Shown: positions 7,816 through 59,530 of the stretch, piece by piece | How positions within the stretch are numbered: position 1 is the first letter of the stretch | How the letters are laid out: every line of letters begins with the position of its first letter | NCBI GenBank assembly: GCA_943736015.1 | Contig: OX031064.1 | Coordinates: 35,205,361-35,269,360, forward strand | Reading direction: 5' to 3' | DNA from: Tridacna crocea | Taxonomy: Eukaryota > Mollusca > Bivalvia > Cardiida > Cardiidae | DNA length: 64,000 nucleotides | Notes under the pieces: generated by a model | Told to the model about the DNA's origin: nothing | Databases searched by the model: none | What the model saw: the letters and a program-made list of their open reading frames with translations, nothing else | Made by a program: the position numbers and the translations under genes

Positions 7816-8979
7816 GAATCTTCAAAGAATATGACATGCGCAGGACACTATTCCGTAATAAAACATTTTAAGTGCCAAATGATAGAACCGCAGAAGTGTG
7901 AAATATTGTAAAGTGCTTAGAGTACTCCTGTATCAAGGAGTTTAAATTTCAAATGGCACAATCCTTTCAGATATACCTACGACAGCAGTGCAAAAAGCAC
8001 CGGCCATTTGCGAAAGGCACTGACTGACATGTCACTTGGTGCAAAAGTGCATTTTAGGGTAGTACATGTAACACTTTTTGAGCAGTGCAGAGTGAGGTTG
8101 ATGGTTAAGATAAGGAATGGAATGAGACTATGAAGAATGTGCTCTATCAGTAGGTATACATTCATAATAGTGTGGAGAATGTGTTGATAGCATGAATGCA
8201 AACATTAAACTTTGTTGTGATAAAAATACAAATAATGTCATGATGTCGCGTTGAACTGCCCAGCCTCCAGAATCCCCTATCTCCAGAGCTTTTAGAATCT
8301 GACTAAGACAAGATACCAGGCTGAAATTTTGTAAACTTGTGAAAAAGATATGATTTTCACTGCTCCCAACATTATATCTGCCATAACTATTATGAAAGAT
8401 ATAACGAAAGACTAGGTAATTCTGGGACAACCCTAGTATGAGTGTGTTAAGGCATTGAAACCAACCACAGCATGTCATGGAATTTGTAGTTCTCTACAAT
8501 TTTAAATTAAGGGATAGGTGTCATTGTTGCTACGATGTATATGTGAGGAAAATTATTTCATGTTTAGCAACACAAAGAAATGCACCACAACAAGTTGAAG
8601 TCAACAAAATTTTGCAAATATTTTGATTTACTCCCTCTATAAATTGTTTCACTCTTCTTTCAAGTTAAATATCACAGCTATTTCGTAATATATGTTTCAG
8701 CATGTTTCAAACAGAACTTTATCTGTAAAAATGGAGCCATGAATTCTATATAGGCTAAAAGTGGTGATATAGGATGACTTTTGTCTCACTGGTTTTGTGT
8801 GATAAACAGAATCTCAATTTTATATTTATTTACTATCATTTTAATCAAACTCACTGACTAAAAAAGTAGGTGATGCTTGTCAAGGTTTGCATCATACAAT
8901 TTTATTCAACTGGTTTGATAAAAAATGATAATACATAAACACTTGCTCAAGATCCTTTATGTAACCTTTAGTCAGTTCA

Positions 8980-11359: not shown

Positions 11360-11588
11360 TTAGCCCTTTACCAGACGACAAAATTTTAGCCTTATCCAAA
11401 TTGAAAGCATTTGCAGACGACAAAGTAAAGGTGATCGAAAAATTGGAATTTGTTCTGGGAAGGGTAGAAATCACTGTGGGAAAAGGAGAAAATGCTGGTT
11501 ACCAGCATTTTCTCCTTTTCCCACAGTGTTTTCGAAAGGCTTCTTTCTCGGGGGCGTCAAAAGTAGGGATTGTGTTGTAATGGGTTAA
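11360..11588 (-). mobile_element. TTAA hairpin MITE, well preserved
   Basis: The hairpin gaaaatgctgg/ccagcattttc with gtgggaaaagga/tccttttcccac arms is perfect. The left terminus reads ttagcccttta (one change from ttaa), the right gtaatgggttaa. Confidence 0.85.
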
Positions 11589-11809
11589 CTCCTTACCAAA
11601 CAACAAAATGCACGTCCAAATTGATAGCATTTGCAGACTATAAAATCAATGCAACTCAAACACTGAAATTTTTCTTGGGAAAGGGTAGAAAACATTGTGA
11701 GAAAAGGAGAAAATGCAGTTTACCGGCATTTTCTCCATTTCCAACAATGTTTTCAAAAGTCTTCTTTCTTGGAGTAGTAAAAACCAGGGATTGTTTGGGA
11801 GTGGGTTAA
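11585..11809 (-). mobile_element. TTAA hairpin MITE
   Basis: Shares the TTAA at 11,585-11,588 with the preceding copy. The tip of the hairpin has diverged (gaaaatgcagtttaccggca). Ends gggagtgggttaa. Confidence 0.8.
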
Positions 11810-29010: not shown

Positions 29011-29311
29011 TAAGCGAAATTTTCCTGTTTTATAACTTCACGAATCGAGTATGCTGACGAAATAGAAATTCCCTTCTGTGTGCCCCAATTCAATAAAAAC
29101 TGACGTCACTGGAAACTGACGTCACTAAAACGTGCAGTTTGGTGAATAAATGTGCAGTCTGGTGATCGATCGATGCCAACATTTTGGATGATGTATTGCA
29201 CGTGTAGTGATGTTTACGGGGCACTCAAAAGGGAAACTGGTTTTTGCCAGGGAACATGATATTATGTTCCCGGCATGTTAACCAATCAGATCACGAGAAA
29301 TTTCTTTGCAG

Positions 29312-29433
29312 CATAATAATATCTCCTTATCGGACAGTGTAGATTCAAAATCAGACTGCGCGTTCTGTGCTGTCTGATTTTGATCTACATTGTCCTCAAT
29401 AGGTCATTTAGTCGCGCTTTGCAGTCTTCCATC
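29312..29433 (+). mobile_element. Family B MITE, right-hand part
   Basis: Contains atctccttatcggacagtgt, the hairpin region aatcagactgcgcgttctgtg/ctgtctgattttgat in diverged form, and ggtcatttagtcgcgctttgc. It is fused to a half MITE of the other family at about 29,434. Confidence 0.7.
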
Positions 29434-29708: not shown

Positions 29709-29929
29709 TTAAGTCGTTACCAAACGACAAAATCTTAGGTTTGACCAAATCGAAAGCATTTGCAGACGACAACATAAAAGTGACCGAAAATTTGAAATTT
29801 GTTTTGTGAAAGGTAGAAAACATTGTGGGAAAAGGAGAAAATGCTGGTTACAAGCATTTTCCCACAATGTTTTCTAAAGGTTTCTTACTAGGGGGCGTCA
29901 AAAGTAGGGCTTGTGTGGTAATGGGTTAA
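29709..29929 (-). mobile_element. TTAA hairpin MITE
   Basis: From ttaagtcgttaccaaacgac to gtgtggtaatgggttaa. The right hairpin arm is about 8 bases shorter than the left (agcattttcccacaatg). Confidence 0.85.
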
Positions 29930-30155: not shown

Positions 30156-30432
30156 CCGGTGTAATGCAGACAAATGACCCTCCCCTACAAAATGATCCAT
30201 GGGTCATTATCCTAAGTATAGAAATGACCCATGGGTCATTTCACTACGTAGAGGAATGAGCCGTGTCATTATTCTAAGTATAAAAATGACCCGAGGGTCA
30301 TTATTCTACGTAGAGAAATGACCCTCTGGGTCATTTCTGTACGTAGAATGATGACCCTGGTCATTCCTCTACGTAGTGAAATGACCAATGGGTCATTTTG
30401 TAGGAGAGGGTCATTTCTCTGCGTTACACCGG
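30156..30432. mobile_element. Foldback element 1, nested palindromes
   Basis: Ends ccggtgtaatgcagacaaat and the inverse tctgcgttacaccgg, with at least 40 bp of inverted repeat. The interior alternates palindromes such as aatgacccatgggtcatt and aatgaccctctgggtcatt with tacgta spacers. The flanking CCGG or CG may be a target duplication but is itself palindromic, so the boundary is uncertain by 2-4 bases. Confidence 0.85.
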
Positions 30433-30490
30433 GCTGCCTAGACGCGCAGATTAATAAACTCCCTTCGACCGTGCACCCTGAGGATGTTGC

Positions 30491-30855
30491 CGTTGTAATG
30501 CAGAGAAATGACCCTCTCCTACAAAATGACCCATAGATAACTTCACTACATAACCCTCTTGGGTCATTTCTCTAAGTAGAATAATGACCCGGGTCATTCC
30601 TCTACGTACAGAAATAACCCTCTTGGGTCATTTCTCTAGGTAGAATAATGACCCGGGTCATTCCTCTACGTACAGAAATAACCTTCTTGGGTCATTTCTC
30701 TAAGAAGAATAATGACCCGGGTCATTCCTCTACGTACAGAAATAACCCTCTTTGGTCATTTCTCTAGGTAGAATAATGACCATAGTCATTCCGCTACGTA
30801 GTGAAATGACCCATGGTTCTTTTTGTAGGGAGGGTCATTTTTCTGCATTACAACG
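30491..30855. mobile_element. Foldback element 2, with 64-bp tandem palindromic units
   Basis: Ends cgttgtaatgcagagaaatg and the inverse tttctgcattacaacg. The interior carries about three copies of a 64-bp unit, each made of aaccctcttgggtcatttct, a spacer and aatgacccgggtcatt followed by cctctacgtac. The right end mirrors the left (gtagggagggtcattt against aaatgaccctctcctac). Confidence 0.88.
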
Positions 30856-31006
30856 TCGTACAAGATATCAACCTTAACATAATGACGATTACAATCTTGC
30901 CAAACATCTCCTGTTTCATGCAAAGGAAAGACACAAACTCTCAGGACTTCTAGACTCAACCATGAGATCGTCGTATTTACCTAGAATTAATCCTAAAGCT
31001 GCCTAG

Positions 31007-31676
31007 GGCTGTCATTCCCCAAAACGTAACTTTAAGTATAGCAAGAATTGAGCTCTTAATACCGAACTGGAAGTTTTATTTTAGTTATTTAGCGGGATAA
31101 ACGTTAATCTTTCGGCAGCCATGGTTTCACTCTTTGCGACCCTTCTTTTCATAATGATGGCTAAAATATCTTGGGGAAAGAAGAAAATCCTAGATATCAG
31201 CATTTTCTCCTTTTCCATGGTGTTTTCAAATGCTTTCTTCTTCAGGGCTCCTAAAACTCTAAAAAAAAAATTGACAAGGGTTAGCACCCGTGTGCAAGCC
31301 GGATGGCTCCCGCCAGACAACACATCCACTACACGGTGCCTGTAAGCTACAGGTAATGACAGATGTCCTAACAGTAAATAATGCATCAGACAGTGCCTGG
31401 AAGGCACCCAGCCAGTCGCAGCTGAGACCGAGCATTAACCTTCGACGGGGGCCATCTACCTTTGCTTCATTGACACTACCGATTGACTGGCGCCGTCAAT
31501 GCCAGGAAATGTAAATATGTCACGGAAATCAATGCAATAGTTAGGTCTTGACGATCCTGTAATCGTCCCACAGGTTTGCGTGGACCACGCATACACTCAC
31601 ACTGCGTTTACAGTGTCCATTACTGATTTGGATGATCCCGTCCAATATTGTTTTGATTTAATCATTATCCTGTTAG
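31007..31676. other. No gene recognised; decayed MITE and GC-richer patch
   Basis: A degraded hairpin MITE is at about 31,160-31,265. The stretch 31,285-31,520 is GC-richer than its surroundings and has open frames in several phases, but no family was recognised. Confidence 0.4.
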
Positions 31677-43560: not shown

Positions 43561-43670
43561 ATCTGATAAAATAGTTCCTGACTTGGATTGAAAGGCTAAT
43601 CTTTTTCGATGTTTTTGTGCAGATGCACATATTCTTTTCATTTATCTATTTATGGATTTGTTTATTGCAG

Positions 43671-44022
43671 GAGTAATCATTCAAAATCTACACATTTGTT
43701 TGGGCCTAAAAAGTGTCAAAAGATGAAACACTTCGACCGGGAATATGACTGTCCCACTCGCTACTTCATGATTCACGATGCCAACAGAATACCGGAAAAC
43801 ATGGTCTATGCCGACTGCGTATGTGACGGATGTCGTCATGACAACAGGAAACTGTGTCAACCAGTCTACACATTTACAAAAGTGTTAAGGCGTAATGATG
43901 ACTGTAACTACAATTGGGTGTATCAGAGAGTCCCCATAGCATGCTCTTGCAAATCTGAGTCGCAAATACGTCCAGCGAAAGAAGTCAATAGCCAGGATGT
44001 TCCAAAAAGTCCTAGATTATAG
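43671..44022 (+). CDS. IL17: IL-17-like gene A, exon 3 (cystine-knot domain)
   Basis: The acceptor is tttattgcag; the first base completes an arginine codon from exon 2, then 116 codons run to TAG at 44,020-44,022, giving a 192-residue protein. Cysteines fall at 91, 103, 125, 127, 130, 138, 154, 167 and 169. The segments DCPTRYFMIHDANRIPENM and YADCVCDGCRHDN, and the final CSC, match the IL-17 signature (CP, R-P-x2-A-x-C-x-C-x2-C, C-x-C). N78-H-S80 is a possible N-glycosylation site. The tail after the last cysteine (23 residues, PKSPRL end) is basic. This is the last exon. Family assignment is strong; which IL-17 subgroup cannot be told by eye. A SINE head lies 110 bp upstream. Confidence 0.9.
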
Positions 44023-44339: not shown

Positions 44340-45740
44340 TTTTTACCAAACAATACCGTCTGGTGAATGGAGGCTACTTGCACTATACAGAAATGAAGGA
44401 ATTCTTTAAAAATCTTCTCTTCTGAAACCGCTGGTCGGATTTTGAAATAATTTCACAGATATGTTCCTTGGGTGAGCCTTTTCAAAAGTTGTTCGTGAAA
44501 TTTTGATCCGTCAAAATATGTGGCTCTGGTGAATGGGGGCTACTTGCACTATACAGAATTACAGGAATTCTCAAAAAATCTTCTTCTCTGAAACCGCTTG
44601 TCAGATTTTGATATAATTTTACAGAGTTGTTGCTTGGGTGACCCTTTTCAAAAATTGTTCGCGAAAATTTGATTGGTCCAGAAACATGGCTCTGGTGAAT
44701 GGGGGCTACTTGCATTATAGGGAAATGAAGAAATTCTTGAAAAATCGTCTTCTCTGAAACCGCTGGTCGGATTTGGAAATAATTTCACAGAGTTGTTCCT
44801 TGGGTGACCCTTTTCAAAACGTGTTCGCGAAATTTTGATTGGTCAAGAAACATGGCTCTGGTGAATGGGGGCTACTTGCACTATACGGCAAAGAAGAAAT
44901 TCTTAAAAATTCTTCTTCTCTGAAACCGCTGGACAGATTTTGAAATAATTTCTCAGGGATGTTCCTTGGGTGACCCTTTTCAAAAATTGTTCGCGAAATT
45001 TTGATTTGTCAAGAAACATGGCTCTGGTGAATGGGGGCTACTTGCACTATAGGGAAATGAAGAAATTTTTAAAAATTCTTCTTCTCTGAAACGGCTGGAC
45101 AGATTTTGAAATAATTTCACAGAGATGATCCTTGGGTGACCCTTTTGAAAAATTGTTCACGAAATTTTGATCCGTCAAGAAACATGGCTCTGGTGAATGG
45201 GGGCTACTTGCACTATATGGAAATGAAGAAATTCTTGAAAATTCTTCTTTTCTGAAACCCCTGGTCAGATTTTAAAATAATTTGACAGAGATGTTCCTTT
45301 GGTGACACTTTTCAAAAACTGTACATATAATTTTGATCCGTCAAGAAACATGGCTCTTGCACTATATGGCCATGATGAAATTCTCGAAAATTCTCTTTCT
45401 CTGAAACCTCTGAAACCCCTGGTTAGTTTGTAAAAGAAATTTTCCGAAATGTTCCTTTGGTGACCCTTTTCAAAACTTGTTCGTAAATTTTGATCCATCA
45501 AGAAATATGGCTCTTGTCGAGGGGAGCTACTTGCTCTTTTACAGAAATGAAGAATTCTTAAAAATTCTTCTTTTTGAAACTGATGGTCAGATTTTGAAAT
45601 GACTTTTACTGGTGACCTTTTGAAAATTGCTTGGCAAAATTATAAATTTGGTTCCAGTGTTTCAATACCTCAAAAAACAGGCTATGGCCATCTCAAAAAT
45701 TCAGGTGAGCGATCCAGGGCCATCTTGGCCCTCTTGTTTA
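44340..45740. mobile_element. Interspersed element with eight 166-bp tandem repeats
   Basis: The marker ggctctggtgaatgggggct recurs at 44,521, 44,688, 44,854, 45,020 and 45,186, with diverged forms at 44,356, 45,352 and 45,509: spacing 166-167 bp. Each unit also holds ttgggtgacccttttcaaaa and ctgaaaccgctggtcagatt. The 3' part (45,600-45,740) ends ggtgagcgatccagggccat, ctcttgttt, as at 4,745. No conserved reading frame seen. Confidence 0.88.
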
Positions 45741-46565: not shown

Positions 46566-46595
46566 ATAATTATTTTGTGATAATATTGACATGCA

Positions 46596-46858
46596 ACACG
46601 CGAAACGGGGCATTCGGACATATGCATAAAATGTCGTCTCGGATCAGCCTGCGCAGTCCGCACAGGCTAATCCGAGACGGCAATTTACGACTACATTAGA
46701 TTTTGTGCTACAGTAGACCTGCGCAAAACAGAAGATTACATAAAAACAGAAATTATCATCTCGGATGAGCCTGCGGGGACTGCGCAGGCTGGTCCGAGAC
46801 AACACTTTACGCAAAATTAATGTTCGTATGTTCGAATGACCCTTTTCGCGTTTTTAGG
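46596..46858 (+). mobile_element. CAGCCTGCGCAG-type element, full copy
   Basis: Ends cgaaacggggcattcggaca and the inverse gaatgacccttttcgcg. Inside are two palindromic modules: gatcagcctgcgcagtccgc/acaggctaatccgagacgg and gatgagcctgcggggactgc/gcaggctggtccgagac. The centre between them includes a ctacagtagacctgcg word. Confidence 0.8.
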
Positions 46859-53270: not shown

Positions 53271-53287
53271 AGTGGTTTATTTTATCA

Positions 53288-53713
53288 GCAAAAACAAAAT
53301 GCTAATGGTAAATTCTCTGCATATCGAAGGACCCTTACTATCACATCTGCAAAAACAAAATGCTATTGGTAAATTCTCTGCATATCGAAGGAACTTCCTA
53401 TCACATTTGCAAAAACAAAATGCTATTGGTAAATCCTCTGCATATCGAAGGACCCTTCCTATCACATTTGCAAAAACAAAATGCTATTGGTAAATTCTCT
53501 GCATATCGAAGGACCCTTTCTATCACAATTGCAAAAACAAAATGCTATTGGTAAATTCTCTGCGTATCGAAGGACCCTTCCTATCACATCTGCAAAAACA
53601 AAATGCTATTGGTAAATTCTCTGCGTATCGAAGGACCCGTCCTATCACATCTGCAAAAACAAAATGCTATTGGTAAATTCTCTGCATATCGAAGGACCCG
53701 TCCTATCACATTT
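53288..53713 (+). repeat. Minisatellite, seven units of 61 bp
   Basis: The word gcaaaaacaaaatgct recurs at 53,288, 53,349, 53,409, 53,470, 53,531, 53,592 and 53,653. Each unit continues attggtaaattctctgcata and tcgaaggacccttcctatca. Units differ at only a few positions. The period is not a multiple of three, so open frames through it are chance. Confidence 0.95.
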
Positions 53714-59390: not shown

Positions 59391-59530
59391 GTACGAAGGT
59401 TGTACGAAACGACCAACTGGGTACGAAATGACCAAAATTGAAATTATAAGATGGTACGAAATGACCAAAATCGTACGAAATGACCTAGGTACGAAATTAA
59501 CAAGGTACGAAATGACTGGAAACCTGTACA
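59391..59530 (+). repeat. Irregular array of GTACGAAATGACC motifs
   Basis: Seven gtacga words in about 130 bp: gtgtacgaagg, ttgtacgaaacgaccaac, ggtacgaaatgaccaaaatt, ggtacgaaatgaccaaaatc, gtacgaaatgacctagg, gtacgaaattaacaagg, gtacgaaatgactggaa. Spacing varies from 9 to 35 bp. Confidence 0.9.

Follow-up and report, generated by a model that had tools for sequence, protein, structure and literature searches.

What kind of sequence is represented by the two adjacent foldback elements found near the middle of a 64,000-nucleotide stretch of Tridacna crocea DNA (the window), and has it moved? The preliminary description of this locus saw in each element a long inverted repeat whose interior is a string of shorter palindromes, with 64-bp tandem units in the second and a motif common to both. 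The inverted-repeat arms, the inner palindromes, the 64-bp units and the shared motif were all recovered computationally, and both elements are real. Their features are as follows.

30156..30159, no strand assigned: left target-site copy of element 1, CCGG
30160..30428, no strand assigned: element 1, a 269-bp foldback MITE, TGTAATGCAG...CTGCGTTACA
30221..30242, no strand assigned: inner palindrome of element 1, GAAATGACCCATGGGTCATTTC
30429..30432, no strand assigned: right target-site copy of element 1, CCGG
30490..30493, no strand assigned: left flank of element 2, CCGT
30494..30852, no strand assigned: element 2, a 359-bp foldback MITE, TGTAATGCAG...CTGCATTACA
30550..30812, no strand assigned: inner array of element 2, 64-bp tandem units, 4.1 copies, 92% matches
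30853..30856, no strand assigned: right flank of element 2, ACGT, one base off CCGT

The elements are separated by 65 bp. Both start with TGTAATGCAG and end with its inverse, CTGC(A/G)TTACA, with one change in element 1; both ends of each are TGTAA, and the right end of element 1, read inward, is TGTAACGC. Both are built of an alternating 30/32-bp double palindrome, and each 64-bp unit of the element 2 array corresponds approximately to two of these double-dyad units. The sequence GAAATGACCC, at one mismatch or fewer, has 32 matches in the window against 3.8 expected, a number reached in none of 100 shuffles, and 22 of the 32 lie inside the two elements. As single-stranded DNA, both are predicted to fold far better than their shuffles (z = -21.4 for element 1 with 200 shuffles; z = -15.7 for element 2 with 100). 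When dyads were counted more strictly (arm 7, one mismatch), element 1 had 7, against maxima of 4 in shuffled sequence and 5 in other stretches; element 2 alone had 4, below the maximum of 6 found both in shuffled sequence and in 126 other stretches of the window.

A search of the genome (1.05 Gb, 31 contigs) with a 21-bp terminus, allowing at most one mismatch, gave 9,119 matches (4,613 forward and 4,506 reverse), and the reversed control gave none. Copies confined to this locus, an outcome that the preliminary description had named as refuting its reading, are thus not what the genome contains. Element 2 as query gave 119 matches on many contigs (the best 40 of 3,064 first-look candidates being scored). 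With a parser that accepted 80-900 bp only, we delimited 42 distinct complete copies ranging in length from 140 to 648 bp, 23 of them from loci L001-L034 and 19 from L035-L064; L005-L034 are the first places of the terminus on contig C1 and L035-L064 the best matches to element 2, and long copies resembling element 2 are over-represented in the set. Element 2 is among the 42, through L035, and with element 1 they make the set of 43 used for the unit analysis below. The ends of the 42 copies are TGTAATGC...GCATTACA; the TGT-type ends of the other copies are no independent test, since copies were collected with that motif. The first 40 bp of the arms have a median identity of 0.89 (minimum 0.60), and self-complementarity has a median of 0.79 (0.60-0.93), compared with 0.50 for shuffles of 20 of the copies. 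Ten copies of 170-177 bp show pairwise identities of 0.80-0.94 (median 0.84), which indicates that a large part of the observed movement is of older date. The family has the long inverted repeats, inner tandem repeats and capacity to fold back of foldback elements, and it is also MITE-like in being short, non-coding and present in many copies, with TIRs, a TSD and empty sites.

Insertion takes place at GCCGGC-like sites with duplication of 4 bp. Identical 4-bp flanks were found in 20 of the 42 copies, against a mean of 13.0 under shuffled pairing, where 2 of 2,000 shuffles reached 20; no copy had identical 5-bp flanks, and 22 had unequal 4-bp flanks. An earlier parse of 42 copies, partly different and some of them doubtful, found identical flanks in 18; its 200 shuffles averaged 9.3 and never exceeded 15. 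Flank identity is conspicuous only at a length of 4 bp, being inconspicuous at 2 and 3 bp, so that of the two target duplications suggested beforehand, CG and CCGG, the former must be given up. The flank consensus is GCCGG, with G, C, C, G and G at positions -5 to -1 in 68, 73, 68, 71 and 74 of 84 ends, respectively. CCGG is found at 46 of the 84 ends and CCGT/ACGG at four. CCGG is palindromic, and direct and inverted repetition of the flanks are therefore indistinguishable there; among the 26 flank pairs that are not CCGG/CCGG, four are identical, all of them direct repeats (CCTG, CCCG, GCGG and ACGG).

Empty sites were sought in 12 junction alignments, and two were located in the window.

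29129..29318, minus strand: empty site for the L022 copy, a single CCGG, flanks 91% (left, 45 columns) and 87% (right, 151 columns)
46592..46790, minus strand: empty site for the L005 copy, a single CCGT, flanks 82% and 76%

The L005 empty site, with CCGT, is also present in L045. For the L029 copy, empty sites read CCTG in L001 and L047 and CCTC in L045; that for L032 reads CCTG in L047. The L050 site is CCGG in L025 and L004, at 77-85% identity, and CCGA in L024. In L005, L029 and L032, only one flank of the filled copy agrees with its empty site. Alignment of L028 with L059 across the junction gave no clear target, and L022 aligned with itself gave no empty site. Together, the dispersed termini, the 4-bp flank duplication and the empty sites bear out the transposon reading, with CCGG as target duplication.

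We consider it probable that these elements constitute a high-copy, non-coding foldback MITE family of the cut-and-paste type, moved in trans by a transposase of the Ginger1 type. The TGT...ACA ends and the 4-bp CCGG, CCGT and ACGG duplications match the published Ginger1 signature, and it is on this match that the reading of the elements as non-autonomous Ginger1-type transposons is based. The available text of the original account gives Ginger1 TGTNR ends, 4-bp TSDs that are CCGG in 75% and CCGT/ACGG in 24%, and TIRs of about 40-270 bp (PMC2836005). Both window elements begin with 5'-TGTNR. The TSD here is also 4 bp with a preference for CCGG, but the shares of CCGG and of CCGT/ACGG are below the published ones. 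Arms of comparable kind are seen in the 40-bp arm identity of the 42 copies and in three long relatives described below, whose arms measure 270-396 bp. The unequal flanks and the low share of CCGG are read as decay in view of the median identity of 0.84 among the ten copies of 170-177 bp; they nevertheless weaken the match to Ginger1. Further differences are that the elements lack a transposase and have insides made of palindromic units. As described in the available text, Ginger1 families are small and of low copy number, the largest listed having more than 100 copies (Bao, Kapitonov and Jurka 2010, PMC2836005), whereas about 9,100 near-intact termini are found here, a surprisingly high number for Ginger1.

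A non-autonomous transposon from a different superfamily, possibly one not yet described, that likewise duplicates 4 bp at CCGG would account for the same target sites, and the CCGG share below that of Ginger1 speaks for it, as do two results of the searches described below, that no autonomous partner was found and that relatives of 2.7-3.7 kb with matching ends have no match to the integrase-like protein. We regard it as unlikely, because TGTNR ends and CCGG/CCGT/ACGG targets together fit Ginger1 specifically. IS481EU also has TGT...ACA ends, but in the published text available it is characterised from parabasalids, with TSDs of 4, 15/16 and 24 bp, and IS3EU/GingerRoot is there given TSDs of mostly 6 bp. 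For Ginger2/Tdd an AT-rich target is expected, RTATAY for Ginger2 in the accessible part of PMC2836005, and the flank consensus here is GCCGG.

If a Ginger1-type enzyme moves the family, autonomous copies might be sought between the same ends. According to the available text, the Ginger1 transposase is Gypsy-integrase-like and autonomous members have YPYY, H2C2, DDE and GPY/F features, usually ending in OTU or Ulp1 (PMC2836005). No autonomous Ginger1 member between these ends was found among the best 88 of 1,979 candidates scored, nor among the seven OTU matches read (L067, L068, L069, L073, L074, L075 and L078) of the 40 that the genome yielded. A pattern for termini without the following G gave 199 + 231 matches; among the 100 listed, it failed to pick out autonomous copies. 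The one full match among the 88 candidates is the protein of L075 itself (G000:C3:50118000-50121700), whose gene (L075:1349-3700) has a single open frame for an integrase core, rve (E 3.1e-15), together with OTU (E 7.9e-11). From D209 to E245 it has DD35E spacing, and its top solved-structure matches are retroviral integrases (60 of 126 matches shown); Pfam gave no zinc-finger family beside rve and OTU. The protein has a tail of repeats of about 25 amino acids. No MITE end was found in the 3.8 kb before the gene or the 2.2 kb after the stop, and L075 is possibly a host gene derived from Ginger1. Decayed relatives, each with integrase and OTU pieces, are present at C10:27996203 (46%) and C14:30923796 (40%), and C2:20316012 has a 38% match to the same integrase-like protein (P0001). 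Ulp1 (PF02902) has three short matches in the genome.

One decayed relative, L079 (4.0 kb), agrees with the terminus in 15 of 20 bases at position 780, some 1 kb upstream of the integrase piece; matches of this type occurred once in 284,629 bases of control sequence read backwards. No CCGG precedes it and no right end follows in the 4 kb, and we take it as a weak lead, outside the evidence for the Ginger1 link. Two related stretches, at L079:780 and L079:1239, lie upstream of this decayed integrase and OTU copy. L080 (4.4 kb) has no MITE end. Several other loci were rejected as partners: L067, which encodes DDE_1 transposase, HTH_psq and a C-terminal OTU in one 658-aa frame (L067:1246-3219, minus strand); L073, L074 and L078, in which OTU accompanies ORFs that by eye resemble reverse transcriptase; and L081, which by eye has a Gypsy-type ORF that includes reverse transcriptase. 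In the window and the other loci compared, L075 and L076 excepted, copies have no match to the integrase and OTU protein. The genome has thus held Ginger1-like enzymes, and their link to the MITE family is suggested by ends and target. The missing transposase is compatible with non-autonomous copies, which need not carry one, and we infer Ginger1 membership from the same two features. Our confidence in it is slightly lowered by the CCGG share and by the shorter stretch searched after L075.

A 96-bp query taken from close to the L065 terminus led to longer relatives, the best 40 of 213 candidate places being scored. These include at least eight plus/minus pairs with a spacing of 2.5-3.6 kb and one with a spacing of 10.3 kb. 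L065, L071 and L072 (2.7-3.7 kb) have their ends and most of their length in common, with arms of 270-396 bp, and the interior of the 10-kb L070 has pieces in common with them. L065, L070 and L071 carry an array of the unit in their middle; L066 showed one arm only in 10 kb. L065, L071, L072 and the L070 interior were rejected as autonomous partners, as no transposase was seen and none matches the L075 protein. ORFs at window positions 8128-8478 (minus strand) and L065:3000-3308 look alike by eye, and the window may contain a fragment of the long relatives.

The inside of the elements has a regular architecture. From 84 half-sites in the 43 copies, anchored on exact TGACCC(AT)GGGTCA, the half-site consensus is TCTACGTAGA, then G or A, then A, G or T, then AATGACCC, plus its mirror image. 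The full unit is approximately TCTACGTAGA-GAAA-TGACCC(AT)GGGTCA-TTTC, and measures 30 or 32 bp according to whether its centre is CCCGGG or CCCATGGG. Autocorrelation peaks fall at 64, 126, 63, 30 and 32 bp. Between dyad centres, spacings of 15-16, 31-32, 48 and 62-64 bp occur most often. The 43 copies contain 148 dyads; 20 base-shuffled sets had 2.7 on average and 5 at most. The terminus reads TGTAATGCAGAGAAATGACCC-(pyrimidine run)-TACAAAATGACCC, and behind the first motif the subtypes TCCCCTACA and CCATTACAA occur in 30 and 14 of 84 ends, respectively. Since the terminus already carries the motif twice in direct order, the inside of the element looks like an amplified terminus. This unit that repeats the terminal motif is a surprising feature of the family, and it is because of this repetition that the inner motifs are read as putative transposase sites.

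The arrays might instead have been kept for binding of host proteins, such as nuclear receptors at TGACC half-sites in everted pairs, or for transcription of hairpin RNA. The strong folding of both elements would suit such a role, and TGACCC/GGGTCA resembles the half-site of nuclear receptors. The motif sits, however, in the transposon's own ends, the copies are diverged and dispersed, and by eye one half of many palindromes appears decayed in a copy of 1,087 bp (L041:733-1819); we therefore think this very improbable.

Arrays expand within copies. Among 15 copies of 300-450 bp, 60-mers match on average at 0.834 within a copy and 0.767 between copies (78 of 112 segments); the within-copy likeness is the lower in L047 and L059, and the two are equal in L050. 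A period of 31.4 bp describes the copy lengths (R 0.67, n = 42; the strongest of 300 periods tried between 18 and 48 bp). This spacing comes to about three helical turns and may be no more than the mix of 30 and 32 bp. The 1,087-bp copy, both ends of which are present, has a 63-bp array of 16.1 units with 96% matches. The 64-bp tandem units of element 2 and a group of four termini in tandem at 47-bp spacing (G000:C1:14840289-14840450) might suggest a local satellite or tandem duplication without mobility, which as a full explanation is refuted by the sharp ends and dispersal of copies on many contigs, the target duplication and the empty sites, and which we hold to be next to impossible.

Bivalves are already known to have short elements whose inner array varies in copy number, namely the pearl family, CvA and DTC84; DTC84 also has a conserved palindrome near the repeat junction, and the CvA repeats are related to BIV160/Cg170 satellite monomers, whereas the array here is a 30/32-bp double palindrome repeating the terminal motif (PMC5139131, available part). 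In Xenopus, the inner repeats of the MITE or foldback elements Xstir and miDNA4 expand and can seed satellites, and Tetris of Drosophila is grouped with such elements by a reference title; these differ in host, miDNA4 is Tc1/mariner, and the available part of PMC12628747 states no CCGG target. A bivalve survey lists 98 Ginger elements and, in its available text, leaves MITEs unclassified (PMC10294476). No description of the present family was found in the literature covered on foldback and Ginger-type MITEs with palindromes and motif strings, which lay mostly outside subscription journals. The earlier view that no family like this had been described is thus too strong as to kind, tandem-repeat MITEs being known and the ends and target fitting Ginger1 as given in the available text of PMC2836005; what sets the family apart from the tandem-repeat MITEs compared is the unit that repeats the terminal motif.

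A Ginger1-type enzyme would mobilise the elements in trans, with AAATGACCC, present twice in direct order near each end, as its putative recognition sequence. Inside the element, this motif would have been multiplied in inverted pairs (TGACCC.GGGTCA) that alternate with CTACGTAG dyads. Arrays may gain or lose 30/32-bp units or unit pairs by slippage, during replication or through gap repair, and their growth would make copies hairpin-forming and some satellite-like. We propose, tentatively and as a possibility on the doubtful side, that a Ginger1-type element turned its terminal motif into a double-palindromic array and that the multiplied putative binding sites led to thousands of copies, in a group known from low-copy families, and to satellite-like arrays. 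The transposases of Ginger1 are closely similar to Gypsy LTR retrotransposon integrases, and the available text describes their mode of excision as unknown (PMC2836005). Recognition and excision would become testable on so large a family of short substrates, in which the ends are defined, empty sites exist and the putative binding sites are graded in number. The copies, ranging from 140 bp to 1,087 bp, also document stages by which satellite-like DNA grows within a transposon.

Other repeats were noted in the window. An imperfect 19-bp array of GTACGAAATGACC at 59402-59516 has GAAATGACC in common with the elements, but is without their ends. Tandem arrays lie at 44359-45600 (166 bp x 7.5) and 53284-53711 (61 bp x 7.0). 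A different short repeat, AAAACATTGTGGGAAAAGGAGAAAATGCTGG-like and by eye foldback-like, is found at 29817-29861, 31163-31207 and 11395-11809, and also in many other loci. A 137-aa ORF at 43609-44022 on the plus strand matches interleukin-17 (PF06083, E 1.5e-10).
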